Shown here piece by piece: positions 10,981 to 54,456 of a stretch of 64,000 nt of DNA. The translations under genes and the position numbers were made by a program. Origin of the DNA: Sphingopyxis terrae subsp. terrae NBRC 15098 (GTDB lineage Bacteria; Pseudomonadota; Alphaproteobacteria; Sphingomonadales; Sphingomonadaceae); assembly GCF_001610975.1 (NCBI RefSeq), contig NZ_CP013342.1:806001-870000 (forward strand), written 5' to 3'. The first letter of the stretch is position 1. Each line of letters opens with the position of its first letter. The notes below the pieces were generated by a model, which saw only the letters and a list, made by a program, of their open reading frames with translations, was not told the DNA's origin and made no database searches.

Positions 10981-12564
10981 TTACGTCACCATGCCGCGCA
11001 GCGTCGCGATCCGGTCGGCTTCCTCCGCCGGCTTGTCGCGCCGGATGCGCGCGATGCGCGGGAAACGCATCGCCAGCCCCGATTTGTGGCGCTTCGATGC
11101 GTGGATCGAATCGAAGGCGACCTCGAGCACCAGCGTCTTTTCGACCTCGCGGACCGGGCCGAAGCGATCGACCGTGTTGTCGCGCACGAACTTGTCGAGC
11201 CACTTCAGCTCCTCGTCGGTGAAGCCCGAATAGGCCTTGCCCACCGGCAGCAATTCGCCCGTCTCGGTCCAGCAGCCGAAGGTATAATCCGAATAGAAGC
11301 TGGCGCGGCGCCCGTTGCCGCGCTGCGCATACATCATCACGCAATCGGCGCTCAGCGGATCGCGCTTCCATTTATACCACAGCCCCGCCCGCCGCCCGGC
11401 GACATAGGGGGCATCGCGCCGCTTGAGCATCACGCCTTCGATCGCGGCGTCGCGCGCGCCGGCGCGCAGATCGGCGAGCGCATTGAAATCCGCCGCCGCG
11501 ATCAGCGGCGACAGGTCGAAATGGCTGGCGGCCAGCCGCGGCACGAAGGCCTCCAGTTGGCGCCGCCGTTCGGACCACGGCAGCCCGCGCAGATCGTCGC
11601 CGGCAACGGCCAGCAGGTCATAGACGCGCACGAAAGCCGGATAATCGGCAAGCATCTTTTTCGAGACGGTCTTGCGCCCGAGCCGCTGTTGCAGCGCATT
11701 GAAACTCGCCGCCCCACCCTGTGTTTCTGGGCCGCCCTGAACCTCGCCCCGCACCAGCAACTCGCCGTCGATCACCGCCTCCCGATCGAAGGCCGCGACC
11801 AGTTCGGGGAAAGCACTGCTGATCTCCTCGCCGCCGCGGCTGTAAATACGCGTCGCGCCGGCGGCATGGACGATCTGGACGCGGATGCCGTCCCACTTCC
11901 ATTCGGCGGCGAAGTCGGCGAGGTCGACAACCTCTTCCTCGAGCGGGTGCGCGAGCATGAAGGGCCGGAAAAAGGCGACGTCGGCAAGGTCGGGACGCGG
12001 CGCCCGTCCCTCACCCCAGGCGAACAGCGGCGCATAGGGCGGCGGGATCGCGTGCCATAGCTCCTCGACATCGTCGACCGGCACCCCGAACGCCTGCGCG
12101 AACGCCTGCTTCGCGAGCCGCGCCGACACCCCGACGCGCATTCCGCCCAAGGCCAGTTTGAGCAGCGCATAACGCCCGTCGGCGTCGAGCCGGTCGAGCA
12201 GTGCGGCGACGACCGCGGGCGCATCGCTGCGGCTTGCGGCGGCCAGCGCATCGACGGCTTCGGATATGCTGAGATCCGCACTCTTGCCGGGCGCATCGGG
12301 CCACAACAGCGCCGCCGTCTCCGCCGTATCGCCAACAAAATGTCGCGACAGCCGGAACAGCTCTTCATCCACGCGCGTCGCGAGCAGCGTCCGCACCGTC
12401 CCCGCCTTCACCGCCGAAAAGTCGAGCGCCTCGGTCAACGCCGCGAGCGCCCAGCCGCGATCGGGATCGGGCGTATGCTTCAGATAATCGACGATCAACG
12501 CCAGCTTGCTGTTGCGCGAGCGCGTGTAGATCAGCCGGTCGATCAGGGCGGCGAAGCGCTTCAC
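10981..12564 (-). CDS. ATP-dependent DNA ligase (ligase-associated repair cluster type)
   Basis: 527 residues from a GTG start whose last bases overlap the exonuclease stop (GTGA). An N-terminal DNA-binding domain precedes the nucleotidyltransferase core with adenylation motif KWDG (Lys223), then EGVMLKRRDAPYV (motif IV), GLWYKWKR (motif V) and a C-terminal OB fold with KTLVLEVAF. ATP-dependent ligases of this kind occur in bacteria beside a metallo-beta-lactamase exonuclease and, elsewhere, Lhr-core helicase and MPE phosphoesterase. The last two are not adjacent here. It is distinct from the NAD-dependent replicative LigA. Confidence 0.92.
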   Translation of the reverse strand: MKRFAALIDRLIYTRSRNSKLALIVDYLKHTPDPDRGWALAALTEALDFSAVKAGTVRTLLATRVDEELFRLSRHFVGDTAETAALLWPDAPGKSADLSISEAVDALAAASRSDAPAVVAALLDRLDADGRYALLKLALGGMRVGVSARLAKQAFAQAFGVPVDDVEELWHAIPPPYAPLFAWGEGRAPRPDLADVAFFRPFMLAHPLEEEVVDLADFAAEWKWDGIRVQIVHAAGATRIYSRGGEEISSAFPELVAAFDREAVIDGELLVRGEVQGGPETQGGAASFNALQQRLGRKTVSKKMLADYPAFVRVYDLLAVAGDDLRGLPWSERRRQLEAFVPRLAASHFDLSPLIAAADFNALADLRAGARDAAIEGVMLKRRDAPYVAGRRAGLWYKWKRDPLSADCVMMYAQRGNGRRASFYSDYTFGCWTETGELLPVGKAYSGFTDEELKWLDKFVRDNTVDRFGPVREVEKTLVLEVAFDSIHASKRHKSGLAMRFPRIARIRRDKPAEEADRIATLRGMVT

Positions 12565-13571
12565 ACCTCCTCCTCCAGGTCGCGGCCGACGAGGTGCAGC
12601 GCGCGCGCCTTGCGCTGGGTGAGTTCGCACCAGCGCAAGAGGCCGTCCTCGCTGCCGTGGGTGATCCAGCTCTCCTTGGGGTTCACTTCGGCGATCGTGG
12701 CCGTCAGTTCGTCCCAGTCGGCATGGTCGGAGATGACGAGCGGCAGTTCGACCATCCGTTGCCGCGCGCGCTGGCGCACCCGCATCCAGCCCGACGCCAT
12801 CGCGGTGACGGGATCGGGGAGCCGCCGCGACCAGCGGTCGTTGAGCGCAGACGGCGGGGCAATGACGATCTGCCCCGCCATCGCCGCCTTGTCGGTTTCG
12901 GATACCAGCCGCAATTCGCCCAGATCGACGCCGTGCGCAGCATAGAGCGCGCACATCCGTTCGAGCGCGCCGTGAATATAGATCGGCGCATCCCAGCCCG
13001 CGCCGCGCAGTTCGGCGATCACCCGCTGCGCCTTGCCGAGCGCATAGGCGCCGACGAGTATCGCGCGGTCGGGCTCGGCACGCACCGCGCCGATCAGCTT
13101 GGCGATCTCGTCCCCAGTCGGCGGGTGCCGGAACACCGGCAGGCCAAAGGTCGCCTCGGTCACGAAGATATCGCACGGAACCACCTCGAACGGTGCGCAG
13201 GTCGGGTCGGCGCGGCGCTTGTAATCGCCGGTGACGACGATCCGCTCGCCGCGATACTCCATCAATATCTGCGCGCTGCCGAGCACATGGCCGGCGGGAT
13301 GGAAGCTGAACCGCACCCCGCCGCGCTCGAACCCGTCGCCATAGGCAAAGGCCTGATTGTGGCTCGCCTCGGCATCGACGCCATAGCGCAGCGCCATGAT
13401 CGCGAGCGTCTCCGGCGTCGCGAAGACCGCGCCATGCCCGCTGCGCGCATGATCGGCGTGGCCGTGGGTGACCGCTGCGCGCGCAACGGGGCGCGACGGA
13501 TCGATCCACAAGTCAGCGGGCTTCACATAGATACCGCTCGGGTGCGGCTCGATCCAGCTAGCGCCGGGCAT
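12561..13571 (-). CDS. Ligase-associated DNA exonuclease (metallo-beta-lactamase/beta-CASP-like)
   Basis: 336 residues. The metal-binding motif HGHADH is at 36-41; a second His sits in FHPAGHVLGS and a C-terminal SDHADWDEL / THGSEDG pair completes the fold. The family (TIGR04122-like, SNM1/Artemis relatives) is a manganese-dependent DNA nuclease of the ligase-linked repair cluster. The ATG shares one base with the UdgX stop and its own stop overlaps the ligase GTG, so synthesis of all three is probably coupled. Confidence 0.92.
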   Translation of the reverse strand: MPGASWIEPHPSGIYVKPADLWIDPSRPVARAAVTHGHADHARSGHGAVFATPETLAIMALRYGVDAEASHNQAFAYGDGFERGGVRFSFHPAGHVLGSAQILMEYRGERIVVTGDYKRRADPTCAPFEVVPCDIFVTEATFGLPVFRHPPTGDEIAKLIGAVRAEPDRAILVGAYALGKAQRVIAELRGAGWDAPIYIHGALERMCALYAAHGVDLGELRLVSETDKAAMAGQIVIAPPSALNDRWSRRLPDPVTAMASGWMRVRQRARQRMVELPLVISDHADWDELTATIAEVNPKESWITHGSEDGLLRWCELTQRKARALHLVGRDLEEEV

Positions 13572-15001
13572 CAGGCAGCCAGCTTTCGCGCGCGGATCAG
13601 GTCGGCGACGAACATGTCGCGCTCCTTCGCCGCGCGTTCGCGGTCGGGCAGGCGGAGCAGGAACGACGGATGGACCGTCGCGATCAGCTTCGTGCCGTCC
13701 TCCAGGTCATGCACCGACCCGCGCATCGACGCGATCGTCGCGCTTCGCCCCGTCACCCCTCGCAGCGCGCTGCCGCCCAGCGTCACGATCACGTCGGGCC
13801 GGACCAGCGCGCGCTCCTTGTCGAGCCACCAGCGGCAGATATCGATCTCGGCAGCCGTCGGATTCTGGTGCAGCCTTCGCTTGCCGCGCGGTTCGAATTT
13901 GAAATGTTTGACCGCGTTGGTCAGAAACAGCCGCCGCCGGTCCATGCCCGCTTCGTCGAGCGCTTCGTTCAGCACCTGCCCTGCCGGGCCGACGAAGGGC
14001 CGTCCCTGCAAATCCTCCTGATCGCCGGGCTGTTCGCCGACCAGCATGATCCGCGCCGTCGCCGGTCCCTCGCCCGCGACCGCCTGCGTCGCGTCGCAAT
14101 AGAGCGGACAGCGCGTGCAGCGATCGAGCGCACGCGCGATCGTGTCGAGCGTATCAAGGGCTTCGGTCGAGGCGTCGTCGTCGGTCACGCGTTTGCGCCA
14201 TTTCTCCGTTCGCGCATTCGCAGCCGAAACGGCCACCGCGCGCATCCGTTCCACGCGCGCCTCGGCGCCTGCCAGCAACGGCGCGATATCCTGCGCCTCG
14301 GGCAGGTTGTGCCAGTATTTTTTCGGCATTTCGGCGCGCATCGCGGCGATCTTGACGCGCGCGGGGTTGAAGATCGCGCCATAATAGGTGCGCCACTGAT
14401 CCTCGACCACATCGCTCTCCGGCACTTCGTCCCGCGTCCCGCCGGGACCGTAACGCAGCGCCTCGTCCTCCCAGATCGCACGCGCGTCGGGGGTTACGAT
14501 CGCCCAGTCCATGCCGGTGAAGCGGCGCTGGAAAAAGGGGGCGGTCAGCCGCAGGATGCGGTGCGCGGGCTCGAACCACGCGGCGAAGCGCTCGCGCTCG
14601 CCATCCTCGCCCAGCCGCCGGAACCGCACGAAGGCGTGCATCTTGTGAACATCGCGGCGGATCGCCTTGTCGGCCTTCATCAGCCAGTCGACATCGGCGT
14701 CGGTGCGCCGTTCAAGCAGCCGACGGTCTTGCAACGCGCGCCAAAGCACACGGTAAAGACGTGCGGGCACCGCAGCATCGCGGTAACAGATCACCCGCTC
14801 GGCGATCGCAACCAGTTCGCGCGGCAGGCTGAGCGCGCCGGACGGCGGTGGTACCGCTGCGGCCTCGCCGAACAGCGATGCGCCCTCGCCGCCGCCGCGC
14901 CAGCTGATGTCCTCGGGCGCAATCCCGTCCGCCAGCAGGCTGCGCGCGGCGCGGCGCCATTCGCCGAAATCGCCGGGCGTTTCGAGGACGACCTCCCTCA
15001 C
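13571..15001 (-). CDS. udgX: UdgX-type uracil-DNA-binding protein fused to a TIGR03915-like domain
   Basis: 476 residues from a GTG that overlaps the radical SAM stop (GTGA). The N-terminal ~240 residues match the DNA-metabolism domain found beside such enzymes (FVRFRRLGEDGERERFAAWF, YYGAIFNPARVK). The C-terminal half is a family-4-like UDG with cluster cysteines (CTRCPLYCD), GEQPGDQEDLQGRPFVGPAG, the UdgX insert KRRLH (His378) and VHPSFLLR. In UdgX the histidine of KRRxH forms a covalent bond to the abasic site after uracil excision. The motif here is intact, so tight uracil-DNA capture is expected. Confidence 0.93.
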   Translation of the reverse strand: MREVVLETPGDFGEWRRAARSLLADGIAPEDISWRGGGEGASLFGEAAAVPPPSGALSLPRELVAIAERVICYRDAAVPARLYRVLWRALQDRRLLERRTDADVDWLMKADKAIRRDVHKMHAFVRFRRLGEDGERERFAAWFEPAHRILRLTAPFFQRRFTGMDWAIVTPDARAIWEDEALRYGPGGTRDEVPESDVVEDQWRTYYGAIFNPARVKIAAMRAEMPKKYWHNLPEAQDIAPLLAGAEARVERMRAVAVSAANARTEKWRKRVTDDDASTEALDTLDTIARALDRCTRCPLYCDATQAVAGEGPATARIMLVGEQPGDQEDLQGRPFVGPAGQVLNEALDEAGMDRRRLFLTNAVKHFKFEPRGKRRLHQNPTAAEIDICRWWLDKERALVRPDVIVTLGGSALRGVTGRSATIASMRGSVHDLEDGTKLIATVHPSFLLRLPDRERAAKERDMFVADLIRARKLAA

Positions 15002-16248
15002 AGCGCCAGCGTCAGTTGTTCCGCGGGCGGCGCGAAGCGGGCGCGCAGGTCGGCGCTGTCGGTGAGCTTGCCCGGCCGCCAGTCGGGCGTGACGATGAAG
15101 GGCAGCAGCTTTTTGACCGACGCCGTCAGCTTGGCGAGGTCGCCGAGCCGCACCTTGCCCAGCCGCCGCGCCGCCACGATGCGGTCGACCGCGCGCGTGC
15201 CAAGACCGGGCACGCGGAGCAGCAGTTCGCGCGGCGCCCGGTTGATGTCGACGGGAAAGCTCTCGCGCTGCTGAAGCGCCCACGCAAGCTTGGGATCGAT
15301 CGCCAGGTCGAGCATGCCGCAGCGCCCGCCCGCCATGATTTCGGCGCGCTCGAAGCCATAGAAGCGCAGCAGCCAGTCCGCCTGATACAGGCGGTGCTCA
15401 CGCAGCAGCGGCGGGCGCACGGGGGGCAGGTCGCTGCTCGCGTCGGGAATGGGGCTATAGGCCGAATAATAGACGCGGCGCAGCCGATAGCCCGAATAGA
15501 GGTTCGTCGCCGCGTGCAGAATGTCGTCGTCGCGCGCGCCGTCGGCGCCGACGATCATCTGCGTCGACTGCCCGGCAGGCGCAAAGCGCGGCGGCGGTGC
15601 CTTGCCGATCAGCCGCCCCTTCGCGGCGTCGAGGACGTCGGCCTCGCGCGTGCGCACCGATGCCATCGTCTTGCGGATGACGCCGGGCTTCTTTTCAGGC
15701 GCAAAGCTCGCCAGTCCTGCCTCGGTCGGCAGTTCGACATTGGTCGACAGCCGGTCGGCATAGATGCCGGCAAGCGCGATCAGCGCGGGATCGGCGCCCG
15801 CGATCGTCTTCAAATGGATATAGCCCTGAAAGCGATGCTCCTCGCGCAGCAGCCGCGCGACCTCGACCAGCTGCTCCATCGTATAATCTTCGGACCGGAT
15901 GATCCCCGACGACAGGAACAGCCCCTCGATATAGTTGCGCTTGTAGAAATCGAGCGTCAGCCGCACGACCTCCCGCGGATCGAAACGCGCGCGCGCGACA
16001 TTGCTCGACGCCCGGTTGATGCAGAAGCGGCAGTCATAAACGCAGAAATTGGTCAGCAGGATTTTGAGTAGCGAAATGCAGCGGCCGTCCGGCGCATAGC
16101 TGTGGCATATGCCCATGCCTTCGGTCGATCCGATGCCCTTGGTCGCGGTCGAATCGCGCCGCACCGTTCCCGAGGAGGCGCAGGAGGCATCATATTTCGC
16201 CGCATCGGCGAGGATCGCGAGCTTTTGCAGAATCGATTTTCCCGACAT
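14998..16248 (-). CDS. Radical SAM protein, putative DNA modification/repair (TIGR03916-like)
   Basis: 416 residues. The radical SAM cluster motif is Cys69-x3-Cys73-x2-Cys76 (CVYDCRFC). The C-terminal region has a helix-hairpin-helix-like DNA-binding segment (INRAPRELLLRVPGLGTRAV). It heads a minus-strand operon whose next gene, the UdgX fusion, starts within its stop codon. This rSAM family is known to co-occur with the fused partner; its reaction has not been established to my knowledge. It probably acts on DNA lesions (inference from the HhH segment and neighbours). Confidence 0.9.
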   Translation of the reverse strand: MSGKSILQKLAILADAAKYDASCASSGTVRRDSTATKGIGSTEGMGICHSYAPDGRCISLLKILLTNFCVYDCRFCINRASSNVARARFDPREVVRLTLDFYKRNYIEGLFLSSGIIRSEDYTMEQLVEVARLLREEHRFQGYIHLKTIAGADPALIALAGIYADRLSTNVELPTEAGLASFAPEKKPGVIRKTMASVRTREADVLDAAKGRLIGKAPPPRFAPAGQSTQMIVGADGARDDDILHAATNLYSGYRLRRVYYSAYSPIPDASSDLPPVRPPLLREHRLYQADWLLRFYGFERAEIMAGGRCGMLDLAIDPKLAWALQQRESFPVDINRAPRELLLRVPGLGTRAVDRIVAARRLGKVRLGDLAKLTASVKKLLPFIVTPDWRPGKLTDSADLRARFAPPAEQLTLAL

Positions 16249-16299
16249 GCCACCCGTTTAACACGAGAACATTTAAGGAACAAATCACCTCGTCGCGTT

Positions 16300-48199: not shown

Positions 48200-48964
48200 T
48201 CAGAAAGACGCGCCGAGCGAAAAGACCACCGCGCCGTCGGCGCCGATCGCATCCTTGTAACCGCCGGCCTTGGGCTCGTCGGTATTCACATAGCTGACGC
48301 CGAAGGTCAGCATCTTGTACGAAGCCGTCGCACCGACCGACCAGTCGAATACCTTGCCGTCGAAACCGCCGGGGAAGGCGTCGCTCCATGCTTGGCCCGC
48401 ATGGGCGTTCAGCGCCAGGGGCGTGCCCGGAATGTCGGCGGCGAGTTCGCCGTGCAGATAGAAGGCCGACGATTTGGCACCGGGCGCGCGGCTTGGGTCC
48501 TGCAGATTGCCGAGCGCCGACTGCTTCCACGCATAGTTGACGCCGACCTTCGCATTCACCGGCCCGACATCGGTCGACAGGTTCAGATAGGGTTCGAAGA
48601 AGTCGGCGCCCGATCCGCCGTGCTGCGGACAGAGATAGTACAGCAGACCGCCGTCGACCGTCACACCGCCGACATCCTTGCTGTAACCCGCGAACAGGTC
48701 GACCTCGGTGTTACCGGCAAAGCTGACGCTCGATCCCCAGGTGCCGACGTAAAAGCCGCTTTCGTGGGTCACGGTGATGCCGCCCTGGATGGCCGGGTCT
48801 TCGCTGTTCTGGGTGAAACCGCGGAAGCGATAGTCGGATACCAGCGTCACGCTGCCCGAAATGGTGATCGGATCGGAGGGTGCTTCGTTCTGGGCGAAAG
48901 CGGTGGCGGGAAGAGCGGAAGCCGCAAGGGCAAGGCCCAGGCACGCGCGGGAGAGAGTCTTCAT
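48200..48964 (-). CDS. TorF-family putative porin, copy 1
   Basis: 254 residues with a signal peptide (MKTLSRACLGLALAASALPA). The mature N-terminus has SGSVTLVSDYRFRGFTQN and HESGFYVGTWGSSV, the pattern of TorF outer-membrane barrels (TIGR02001), and it ends with GAVVFSLGASF, a typical terminal beta strand with C-terminal Phe. Substrate unknown. Paralog of the next gene. Confidence 0.88.
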   Translation of the reverse strand: MKTLSRACLGLALAASALPATAFAQNEAPSDPITISGSVTLVSDYRFRGFTQNSEDPAIQGGITVTHESGFYVGTWGSSVSFAGNTEVDLFAGYSKDVGGVTVDGGLLYYLCPQHGGSGADFFEPYLNLSTDVGPVNAKVGVNYAWKQSALGNLQDPSRAPGAKSSAFYLHGELAADIPGTPLALNAHAGQAWSDAFPGGFDGKVFDWSVGATASYKMLTFGVSYVNTDEPKAGGYKDAIGADGAVVFSLGASF

Positions 48965-54114: not shown

Positions 54115-54456
54115 ATTTCTCTCCCTTGTTCTGGCCGCCGGACGGGCGATGCGCGGGCGGCGGCAGGGCCGCACCGTCAGTTAAGTTGACGCTTACGTCA
54201 ACGGCGAGCGATGGCAAGCCCTTCCGCCCCTGGCTGACGGAAAAACGCCGCTCGGGGGGTTGACCGACCATATTCGTTCTCTTATTGTTCTTTTTGTGCA
54301 CACACAACCTGTTCCCCCGTCGCGGCCGCCAAGCGTGGCGGACGGGGGAAAAAGGGCCTCTGCTCCCCACCCTTAATTAGCATACCAAATCCGCAACTTT
54401 ACAATGAGGCGCCCCCCACCACTATCGCATCAGCTTTTGCGAATGGGGAACGGGAA
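54115..54456. other. Intergenic stretch upstream of SDR gene, less GC-rich
   Basis: 342 bases without a credible gene. It holds the SDR upstream region and a T-rich patch (TTATTGTTCTTTTTGTG near 54284-54300), then leads into the IS110 remnant. No hairpin, operator or RNA gene was recognised. Confidence 0.5.

Follow-up and report, generated by a model that had tools for sequence, protein, structure and literature searches.

A Sphingopyxis operon that places a DNA exonuclease and ligase with a radical SAM-UdgX gene pair behind a predicted LexA box

The window analysed here, a 64,000-nucleotide stretch of the Sphingopyxis terrae subsp. terrae NBRC 15098 genome (contig NZ_CP013342.1, positions 806,001 to 870,000), carries four minus-strand genes transcribed in the order radical S-adenosylmethionine (SAM) protein, DUF4130-UdgX fusion (together hereafter the pair), metallo-beta-lactamase/beta-CASP exonuclease and ATP-dependent DNA ligase. 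We lean towards reading them as a LexA-repressed repair operon, probably formed by joining two known modules and acting as one pathway, and hold this to be somewhat likelier than its opposite. Both halves are already known; the four-gene junction is the new part, and it was not found in the literature searched, outside which most subscription journals lie.

All four proteins score above the curated cut-offs of their families (Table 1), and the genes overlap by 4, 1 and 4 nt, exactly as a preliminary description of this DNA had it. The overlaps recur in Sphingopyxis-type loci. Counted over a set in which at least two genomes appear twice, and with each start taken as the in-frame start codon closest to that of the window protein, a choice biased towards the window's pattern, the UdgX-exonuclease overlap is 1 nt in 30/30 loci, the exonuclease-ligase overlap is 4 nt in 28/29, and the radical SAM-UdgX overlap is 4 nt in 26/30, the other four showing a gap of 10 nt. 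A near-copy of the locus (L111, Sphingopyxis terrae NBRC 15098) is 98-99% identical for genes 1-3 and 87% identical for gene 4. The families named in the preliminary description, the KRRLH of the UdgX fusion, and the CxxxCxxC cluster and helix-hairpin-helix-like segment of the radical SAM protein are likewise all present. It also held that the exonuclease and ligase keep their catalytic motifs; HGHADH and KWDG are indeed seen, and we take these to be the catalytic ones.

Table 1. Features of the four-gene locus, in window coordinates
Feature	Position	Strand	Properties
LexA box (predicted) GTTCCTTAAATGTTC (GTTC-N7-GTTC)	16267..16281	-	18 bp before the gene 1 ATG; inside the 51-bp gap after upstream open reading frame 16300-17931
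Gene 1, TIGR03916 rSAM_link_UDG radical SAM protein	14998..16248	-	416 aa, ATG; NCBIfam 548.6 bits, cut-off 343.5
CxxxCxxC [4Fe-4S]/SAM motif, C69/C73/C76	16021..16044	-	invariant in 27 aligned radical SAM homologues
C-terminal helix-hairpin-helix stretch, residues 332-362	15163..15255	-	PF12836 25.1 bits, E 1.9e-5, slightly below gathering threshold 27
Gene 2, DUF4130-UdgX fusion	13571..15001	-	476 aa, GTG; 4-nt overlap with gene 1
DUF4130/TIGR03915 domain, residues 8-236	14294..14980	-	TIGR03915 189.1 bits, cut-off 112.25; PF13566 123.4 bits, cut-off 27
UdgX domain, residues 239-469	13595..14287	-	TIGR03914 309.6 bits, cut-off 189.95; PF03167
KRRLH R-loop	13868..13882	-	R376 and H378 invariant in 38 aligned proteins; H378 is equivalent to H109, the cross-linking residue in UdgX from Mycobacterium smegmatis
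Gene 3, TIGR04122 ligase-associated metallo-beta-lactamase/beta-CASP exonuclease	12561..13571	-	336 aa, ATG; 1-nt overlap with gene 2; 464.5 bits, cut-off 325
Gene 4, TIGR04120 ATP-dependent DNA ligase	10981..12564	-	527 aa, GTG; 4-nt overlap with gene 3; 774.9 bits, cut-off 400

Among 80 genomes of the genus, 53 carry the radical SAM gene above cut-off, and by a strict count the exonuclease gene comes next downstream on the same strand in 49 of these, at a gap of 1477-1533 nt that equals the size of the UdgX gene, supporting the view that the operon has been kept across the genus. In the four exceptions, the locus is split by a contig end (G165), the radical SAM gene stands at a contig end and no exonuclease is found (G163), or the two genes lie 1.2 Mb apart (G177) or on different contigs (G191). 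At the same site, one genome (G080) carries kinase-exonuclease-ligase-SOD and lacks the pair, and S. yananensis (L109) carries kinase-rSAM-UdgX-SOD and lacks the exonuclease and ligase; at this site either half is thus found alone. The labels HWE-type histidine kinase and superoxide dismutase (SOD), like that of a serine dehydratase, are presumptive readings by eye.

The predicted box upstream of gene 1 has the published form of the alphaproteobacterial LexA motif, as given in the accessible part of PMC8565304, and the locus thereby shows the sequence mark of that regulon, GTTC-N7-GTTC near the promoter. The box lies at most 100 bp upstream of the radical SAM gene in 143/145 alphaproteobacterial loci (three with a late-starting radical SAM alignment having been dropped beforehand) versus 27/2900 random windows, and a wider LexA-box scan finds one in 144/180 loci versus 48/3600 random windows. 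The same upstream box occurs in 0/29 other proteobacterial and 0/5 verrucomicrobial loci, whose LexA may read other motifs, and in the single locus labelled actinobacterial. Upstream of exonuclease, ligase and Lhr genes from the same order of bacteria, away from UdgX junctions, it occurs in 0/62 cases (30 exonuclease, 16 ligase, 16 Lhr), a count that excludes genes whose alignment starts late, genes with less than 150 nt of upstream DNA and, except for L246, genes sharing their piece with a UdgX match. The junction therefore places the exonuclease and ligase behind a predicted SOS box. Judging from the box, LexA would bind here and DNA damage would induce the operon.

Two more exact matches to the motif lie on the plus strand of the window, at 48581-48595 and 54276-54290; on reading the open reading frame lists, no SOS gene stands out nearby. 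The actinobacterial locus (L128, Enemella evansiae TN21-6) has both the pair and a LexA box of alphaproteobacterial type on a contig labelled actinobacterial, and groups with Salipiger and Pseudooceanicola; its pair may be either a recent transfer or contamination.

The first half of the operon belongs to a recognized partnership. NCBIfam names tie the families together (TIGR03916 'rSAM_link_UDG', TIGR03915 'SAM_7_link_chp'), and gene 1 shows every mark of TIGR03916: the score, the CxxxCxxC cluster and an adjoining uracil-DNA glycosylase (UDG)/DUF4130 gene, reached through the 4-nt overlap. We take COG4277 to be the TIGR03916 radical SAM family. A two-gene COG1573-COG4277 SOS operon, SOS-regulated in Bacteroidetes, Verrucomicrobia and Alphaproteobacteria, is reported in the accessible part of PMC8565304; genes 1 and 2 are that pair, LexA box included, whereas here the exonuclease and ligase continue the same overlapping unit. 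The literature searched yields no mention of TIGR03916, or of UdgX together with 'radical SAM', while DUF4130 and COG4277 each turn up in a single paper.

The second half comes from a different cluster. Ejaz and Shuman are said to have described a repair cluster of Lhr, nuclease, LigB and phosphodiesterase in 2018. The accessible text of PMC10140301 gives its parts as an Lhr helicase, a metallo-beta-lactamase nuclease, the LigB ligase and a phosphodiesterase. Genes 3 and 4 are the exonuclease and ligase of this cluster, but here the helicase and phosphoesterase lie about 1.1 Mb off, and the 62 cluster genes tested from the same order of bacteria lack the LexA box found at the junction. Across 19 other genomes of the family with the radical SAM, exonuclease and Lhr genes, the exonuclease gene adjoins Lhr in 7, lies 5 kb from it in 1 and is distant from it or on another contig in 11 (scored by eye); the split cluster is thus common in this family. 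An open reading frame that separates Lhr from PdeM in this genome, and Lhr from the radical SAM gene in G039 (L154 4828-9149, L246 5759-10530), reads to us like an aspartyl protease; it may belong to the Lhr neighbourhood and have escaped notice. PMC10953399 describes the Lhr of E. coli as a uracil-DNA glycosylase as well, another if loose link from Lhr-type helicases to uracil that might hold for Lhr-core too.

To see where else the pair docks, we counted 183 loci with a radical SAM match, leaving out three without one (L113, L130, L137). Flanks reached up to 10 kb and some were ended by contig ends; the loci drawn by gene 2 are the 79 most similar to it among 184 confirmed matches, hence skewed to kin and fusions; and at least three genomes stand in both locus sets (L096/G035, L098/G097, L102/G065), making these locus counts rather than genome counts. 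The tandem class comprises 31 loci, 30 of them immediate (L164 is not), and a single genus supplies 30 of the 31. A second arrangement, ligase-exonuclease head-to-head with rSAM-UdgX, is found in four Sphingorhabdus-type loci (two named to order only), with 115-200 nt between aligned starts and a LexA box in the shared gap. In the radical SAM tree, one branch (98*) unites Sphingopyxis, Blastomonas, Hellea and G486, and another (99*) places Sphingorhabdus among the other sphingomonads. A single origin of both joins, posed as one clade, was rejected by the approximately unbiased (AU) test (p 5e-10) on a quick tree, with a group chosen after the neighbourhoods had been seen and omitting Blastomonas and further sequences interspersed with those of Sphingopyxis, an omission that adds to the rejection; yet the two sets sit behind the separate starred branches. 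The tandem and head-to-head joins look independent. In G039, a single open reading frame separates Lhr from the pair that follows it.

Outside Sphingopyxis, the pair's commonest link in sphingomonads is with the mutasome. We use the names ImuB and DnaE2 on the assumption that the Pfam domains of the proteins of one locus (L168) and reading by eye identify them correctly; a greedy longest-open-reading-frame neighbour count, which misses the exonuclease wherever it is overlapped by the ligase frame, served as a lead to these genes only. The pair is flanked by imuB and dnaE2, all on one strand, in 16 sphingomonad loci (imuB gap, 44 to 2550 nt), has dnaE2 downstream in two whose fetched piece lacks imuB (L146, L236), and diverges from imuB-dnaE2 in seven (family f14; 464-572 nt between aligned parts). 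The Sphingopyxis tandem loci share the same kind of pair with this ImuA-ImuB-DnaE2 context but have neither imuB nor dnaE2 in their fetched flanks, the near-copy L111 included; in the window the exonuclease and ligase follow the pair instead. DUF4130 is termed a predicted mutagenesis-related enzyme in the accessible part of PMC3765255, and the exact order imuB-rSAM-UdgX-dnaE2 was not met in the accessible parts of the literature searched.

The 107 genomes drawn by the radical SAM gene divide into 2 with the immediate tandem, 3 with the exonuclease and/or Lhr within 10 kb (G039, G304, G516), 17 with imuB/dnaE2 and 85 with none of these; of the 17, the pair is embedded in 9 and divergent in 7, and 1 has dnaE2 alone, downstream. 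In the phylum sample, 70 of 84 genomes with the radical SAM gene also have the exonuclease, and in five of the 70, from four lineages (this genome, G035, G039, G304 and G516), the two lie within 10 kb, versus 0.35 expected from uniform position, an expectation that ignores genome organisation and shared ancestry. A further class sample gives such co-location in 0/14 new genomes. The Fisher table for co-occurrence (70/14/47/267, 398 genomes) ignores phylogeny, and we do not use it as proof. Three looser co-locations are weak: L162, at 3.3 kb with open reading frames in between (presumably for a MATE transporter and for an aldehyde dehydrogenase); L164, where exonuclease and UdgX are 5.5 kb apart; and Hellea L112, with PdeM 7.3 kb off and the Lhr stretch cut by the locus end.

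Gene 2 retains what is expected of a UdgX. All three class motifs are present, GEQPG (motif A), KRRLH (R-loop) and HPSFLLR (motif B), and the UdgX-domain model matches solved UdgX structures with template modelling scores of 0.85-0.93 (by target length) at 45-47% identity. It thus shares the GEQPG, KRRxH and HPSxLLR motifs and the fold with Mycobacterium smegmatis UdgX, from which it differs in being fused to DUF4130, the solved UdgX chains having 205-229 residues. The roles of the R-loop and of H109 are established UdgX chemistry (PMC10359453, accessible part), and the conservation of H378 suggests that gene 2 could capture abasic sites covalently. Among 157 DUF4130-UDG fusions, GEQPG is found in 154, [KR]RR[LIVM]H in 128 and HPSxxxR in 134. 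Residues of DUF4130 invariant in 38 sequences include R116, H119, K120, E144, H147, R160, N212, R215, E224, Y229, N232 and E235. In a fold search with gene 2, UDG-superfamily entries lead the best 50 of 612 PDB matches, which give no DUF4130 fold assignment; viral matches, where named, are mostly UDG-like or polymerase entries. This genome holds five UDG-superfamily loci above cut-off, so UdgX is not its sole member of that superfamily.

DUF4130 is found in 185 of 186 scanned loci: 157 have it fused to UDG, 26 have it alone, and in 2 a contig end truncates it. Because the 79 loci fetched via gene 2 are all fusions, the fair count is that of the 107 drawn by the radical SAM gene: 106 have DUF4130 (78 fused, 26 alone, 2 cut), and in the remaining one the contig ends inside the radical SAM gene. 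With DUF4130 near-constant and the UDG fusion missing in 26 loci, UdgX is an add-on to a radical SAM-DUF4130 core, and DUF4130 is the steadier partner. In the 26 loci (for example L161, L163, L250, L254, L255 and L260), DUF4130 stands beside the radical SAM gene with no UDG domain in frame or in the fetched flanks. In Sphingopyxis sp. PET50 (L110, 10001-11215), the pair lies in a different context without exonuclease and ligase, and the UdgX frame stops early, ahead of motif B.

For gene 1, a search of solved structures by sequence gives only weak helix-hairpin-helix and radical SAM matches. SplB, the spore photoproduct lyase, offers a precedent for radical SAM chemistry in DNA repair and is SOS-regulated in several species (PMC8565304, accessible part), but it belongs to COG1533 rather than COG4277, and no spore photoproduct lyase is among the 50 fold matches listed for gene 1.

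The conserved operon behind its SOS box suggests that the four enzymes cooperate after DNA damage. We infer a single pathway and a uracil lesion; the reaction of the radical SAM protein, the lesion and the order of steps are guesses. DNA damage would relieve LexA repression, yielding a single mRNA on which the overlapping start and stop codons would hold the four proteins in proportion. The helix-hairpin-helix radical SAM protein and DUF4130 would then locate and chemically alter the damaged base, and UdgX would excise a uracil-like base, stay on the abasic sugar through H378 and shield the site, a step proposed because of the UdgX chemistry cited above. The beta-CASP exonuclease may next trim or clear the processed strand end for the ligase to seal. 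As relatives place the module with imuB/dnaE2 instead, radical SAM-DUF4130-UdgX looks like a lesion-processing front end able to feed two routes, translesion synthesis on the one hand and resection with sealing on the other.

Several observations weigh against a dedicated four-gene pathway. The pair lacks any tested partner in the fetched flanks of 120 of the 183 loci, showing that its coupling to partners is facultative. The exonuclease occurs without the radical SAM gene in 20 genomes of the genus, some of them incomplete, and seven Blastomonas-group loci (L102-L108) have the pair with no exonuclease or ligase in the fetched flanks; neither module, therefore, needs the other. Lhr-core (C1:1922902-1925247) and PdeM/MPE (C1:1926510-1927094) stand together in this genome, far from the exonuclease (C1:818588-819556), and the full Lhr/Exo/LigB/MPE cluster is thus not assembled. 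A consensus scan finds no sigma-70-like promoter, and GTTC-N7-GTTC is at chance level across the window (3 found, 1.63 expected), so that the case for the box lies in its conservation. A search of solved structures by sequence finds no relative of DUF4130. The radical SAM model is of moderate quality (predicted local distance difference test score, pLDDT, 67.3) and its 50 listed fold matches are generic radical SAM enzymes; for these reasons its reaction is not readable from the model.

In the light of these data, the preliminary description is partly borne out. Its families, motifs and operon hold, and the two modules co-locate above the uniform-position expectation. It knew of no characterised system joining all four, and the literature searched here shows none. 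The refuting case that it named, adjacency by chance in one lineage only, is answered by the head-to-head join on another radical SAM branch and by the pair beside Lhr in G039. Its proposal that the radical SAM/UdgX pair takes the place of Lhr and MPE fails, both being present at about 1.92 Mb, and loss and replacement of Lhr/MPE is rejected; nor is the pair an ad hoc stand-in, given its recognized linkage. The facultative coupling and the steadier partnership of DUF4130 temper its interpretation further, and both the LexA box and the docking of the pair onto repair cassettes were absent from it.

The main rival explanation is that only a switch is shared: the exonuclease and ligase would have gained an SOS promoter behind the pair, with the two halves acting in separate repair reactions. 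The genomes with an exonuclease and no pair, the pairs elsewhere with no exonuclease nearby and the continued presence of the classical partners Lhr and PdeM all suit this explanation, whereas a 1-nt overlap kept in 30/30 loci, and the other co-locations seen in G039 and in Sphingorhabdus-type loci, hint at something beyond a shared promoter; we consider it doubtful, though a serious contender. Less credible still is the view that this gene order arose by neutral accident, became fixed in the Sphingopyxis ancestor and was kept since overlapping genes are hard to separate. That one genus accounts for nearly all tandem loci, that the Fisher co-occurrence is uncorrected for phylogeny and that unrelated genes or several kilobases intervene in L162 and L164 would all agree with an accident. 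However, G080 and L109 hold one half only at the same site, indicating that the join is reversible or was built stepwise, a separate head-to-head join exists, and the five co-locations in four lineages exceed the expected 0.35; we judge it improbable. An anti-phage role, in which UdgX and the nuclease would attack invading DNA that is damaged or contains uracil, seems very improbable to us: UdgX-type capture would, by our own reasoning, fit uracil-containing phage DNA, but none of the four proteins matches a PADLOC anti-phage family, and the LexA box and the imuB/dnaE2 linkage favour self-repair.

Our preferred reading remains the LexA-repressed operon acting as one pathway. A bolder extension, which we hold to be unlikely and offer tentatively, is that the module serves as an SOS lesion-conversion cartridge, in which the radical SAM protein and DUF4130 would rewrite or free a damaged base or captured adduct, and which could be plugged into either imuB-dnaE2 or exonuclease-ligase. 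If so, the Sphingopyxis operon would be the error-avoiding counterpart to the mutagenic arrangement of its relatives. The mutagenic neighbour (imuB-dnaE2) and the resection and sealing neighbour (exonuclease-ligase) of the same pair offer a testable contrast between related bacteria, and, since these environmental bacteria can be cultured, a four-gene unit under a single predicted SOS promoter provides a direct way to ask which damage induces and requires it.

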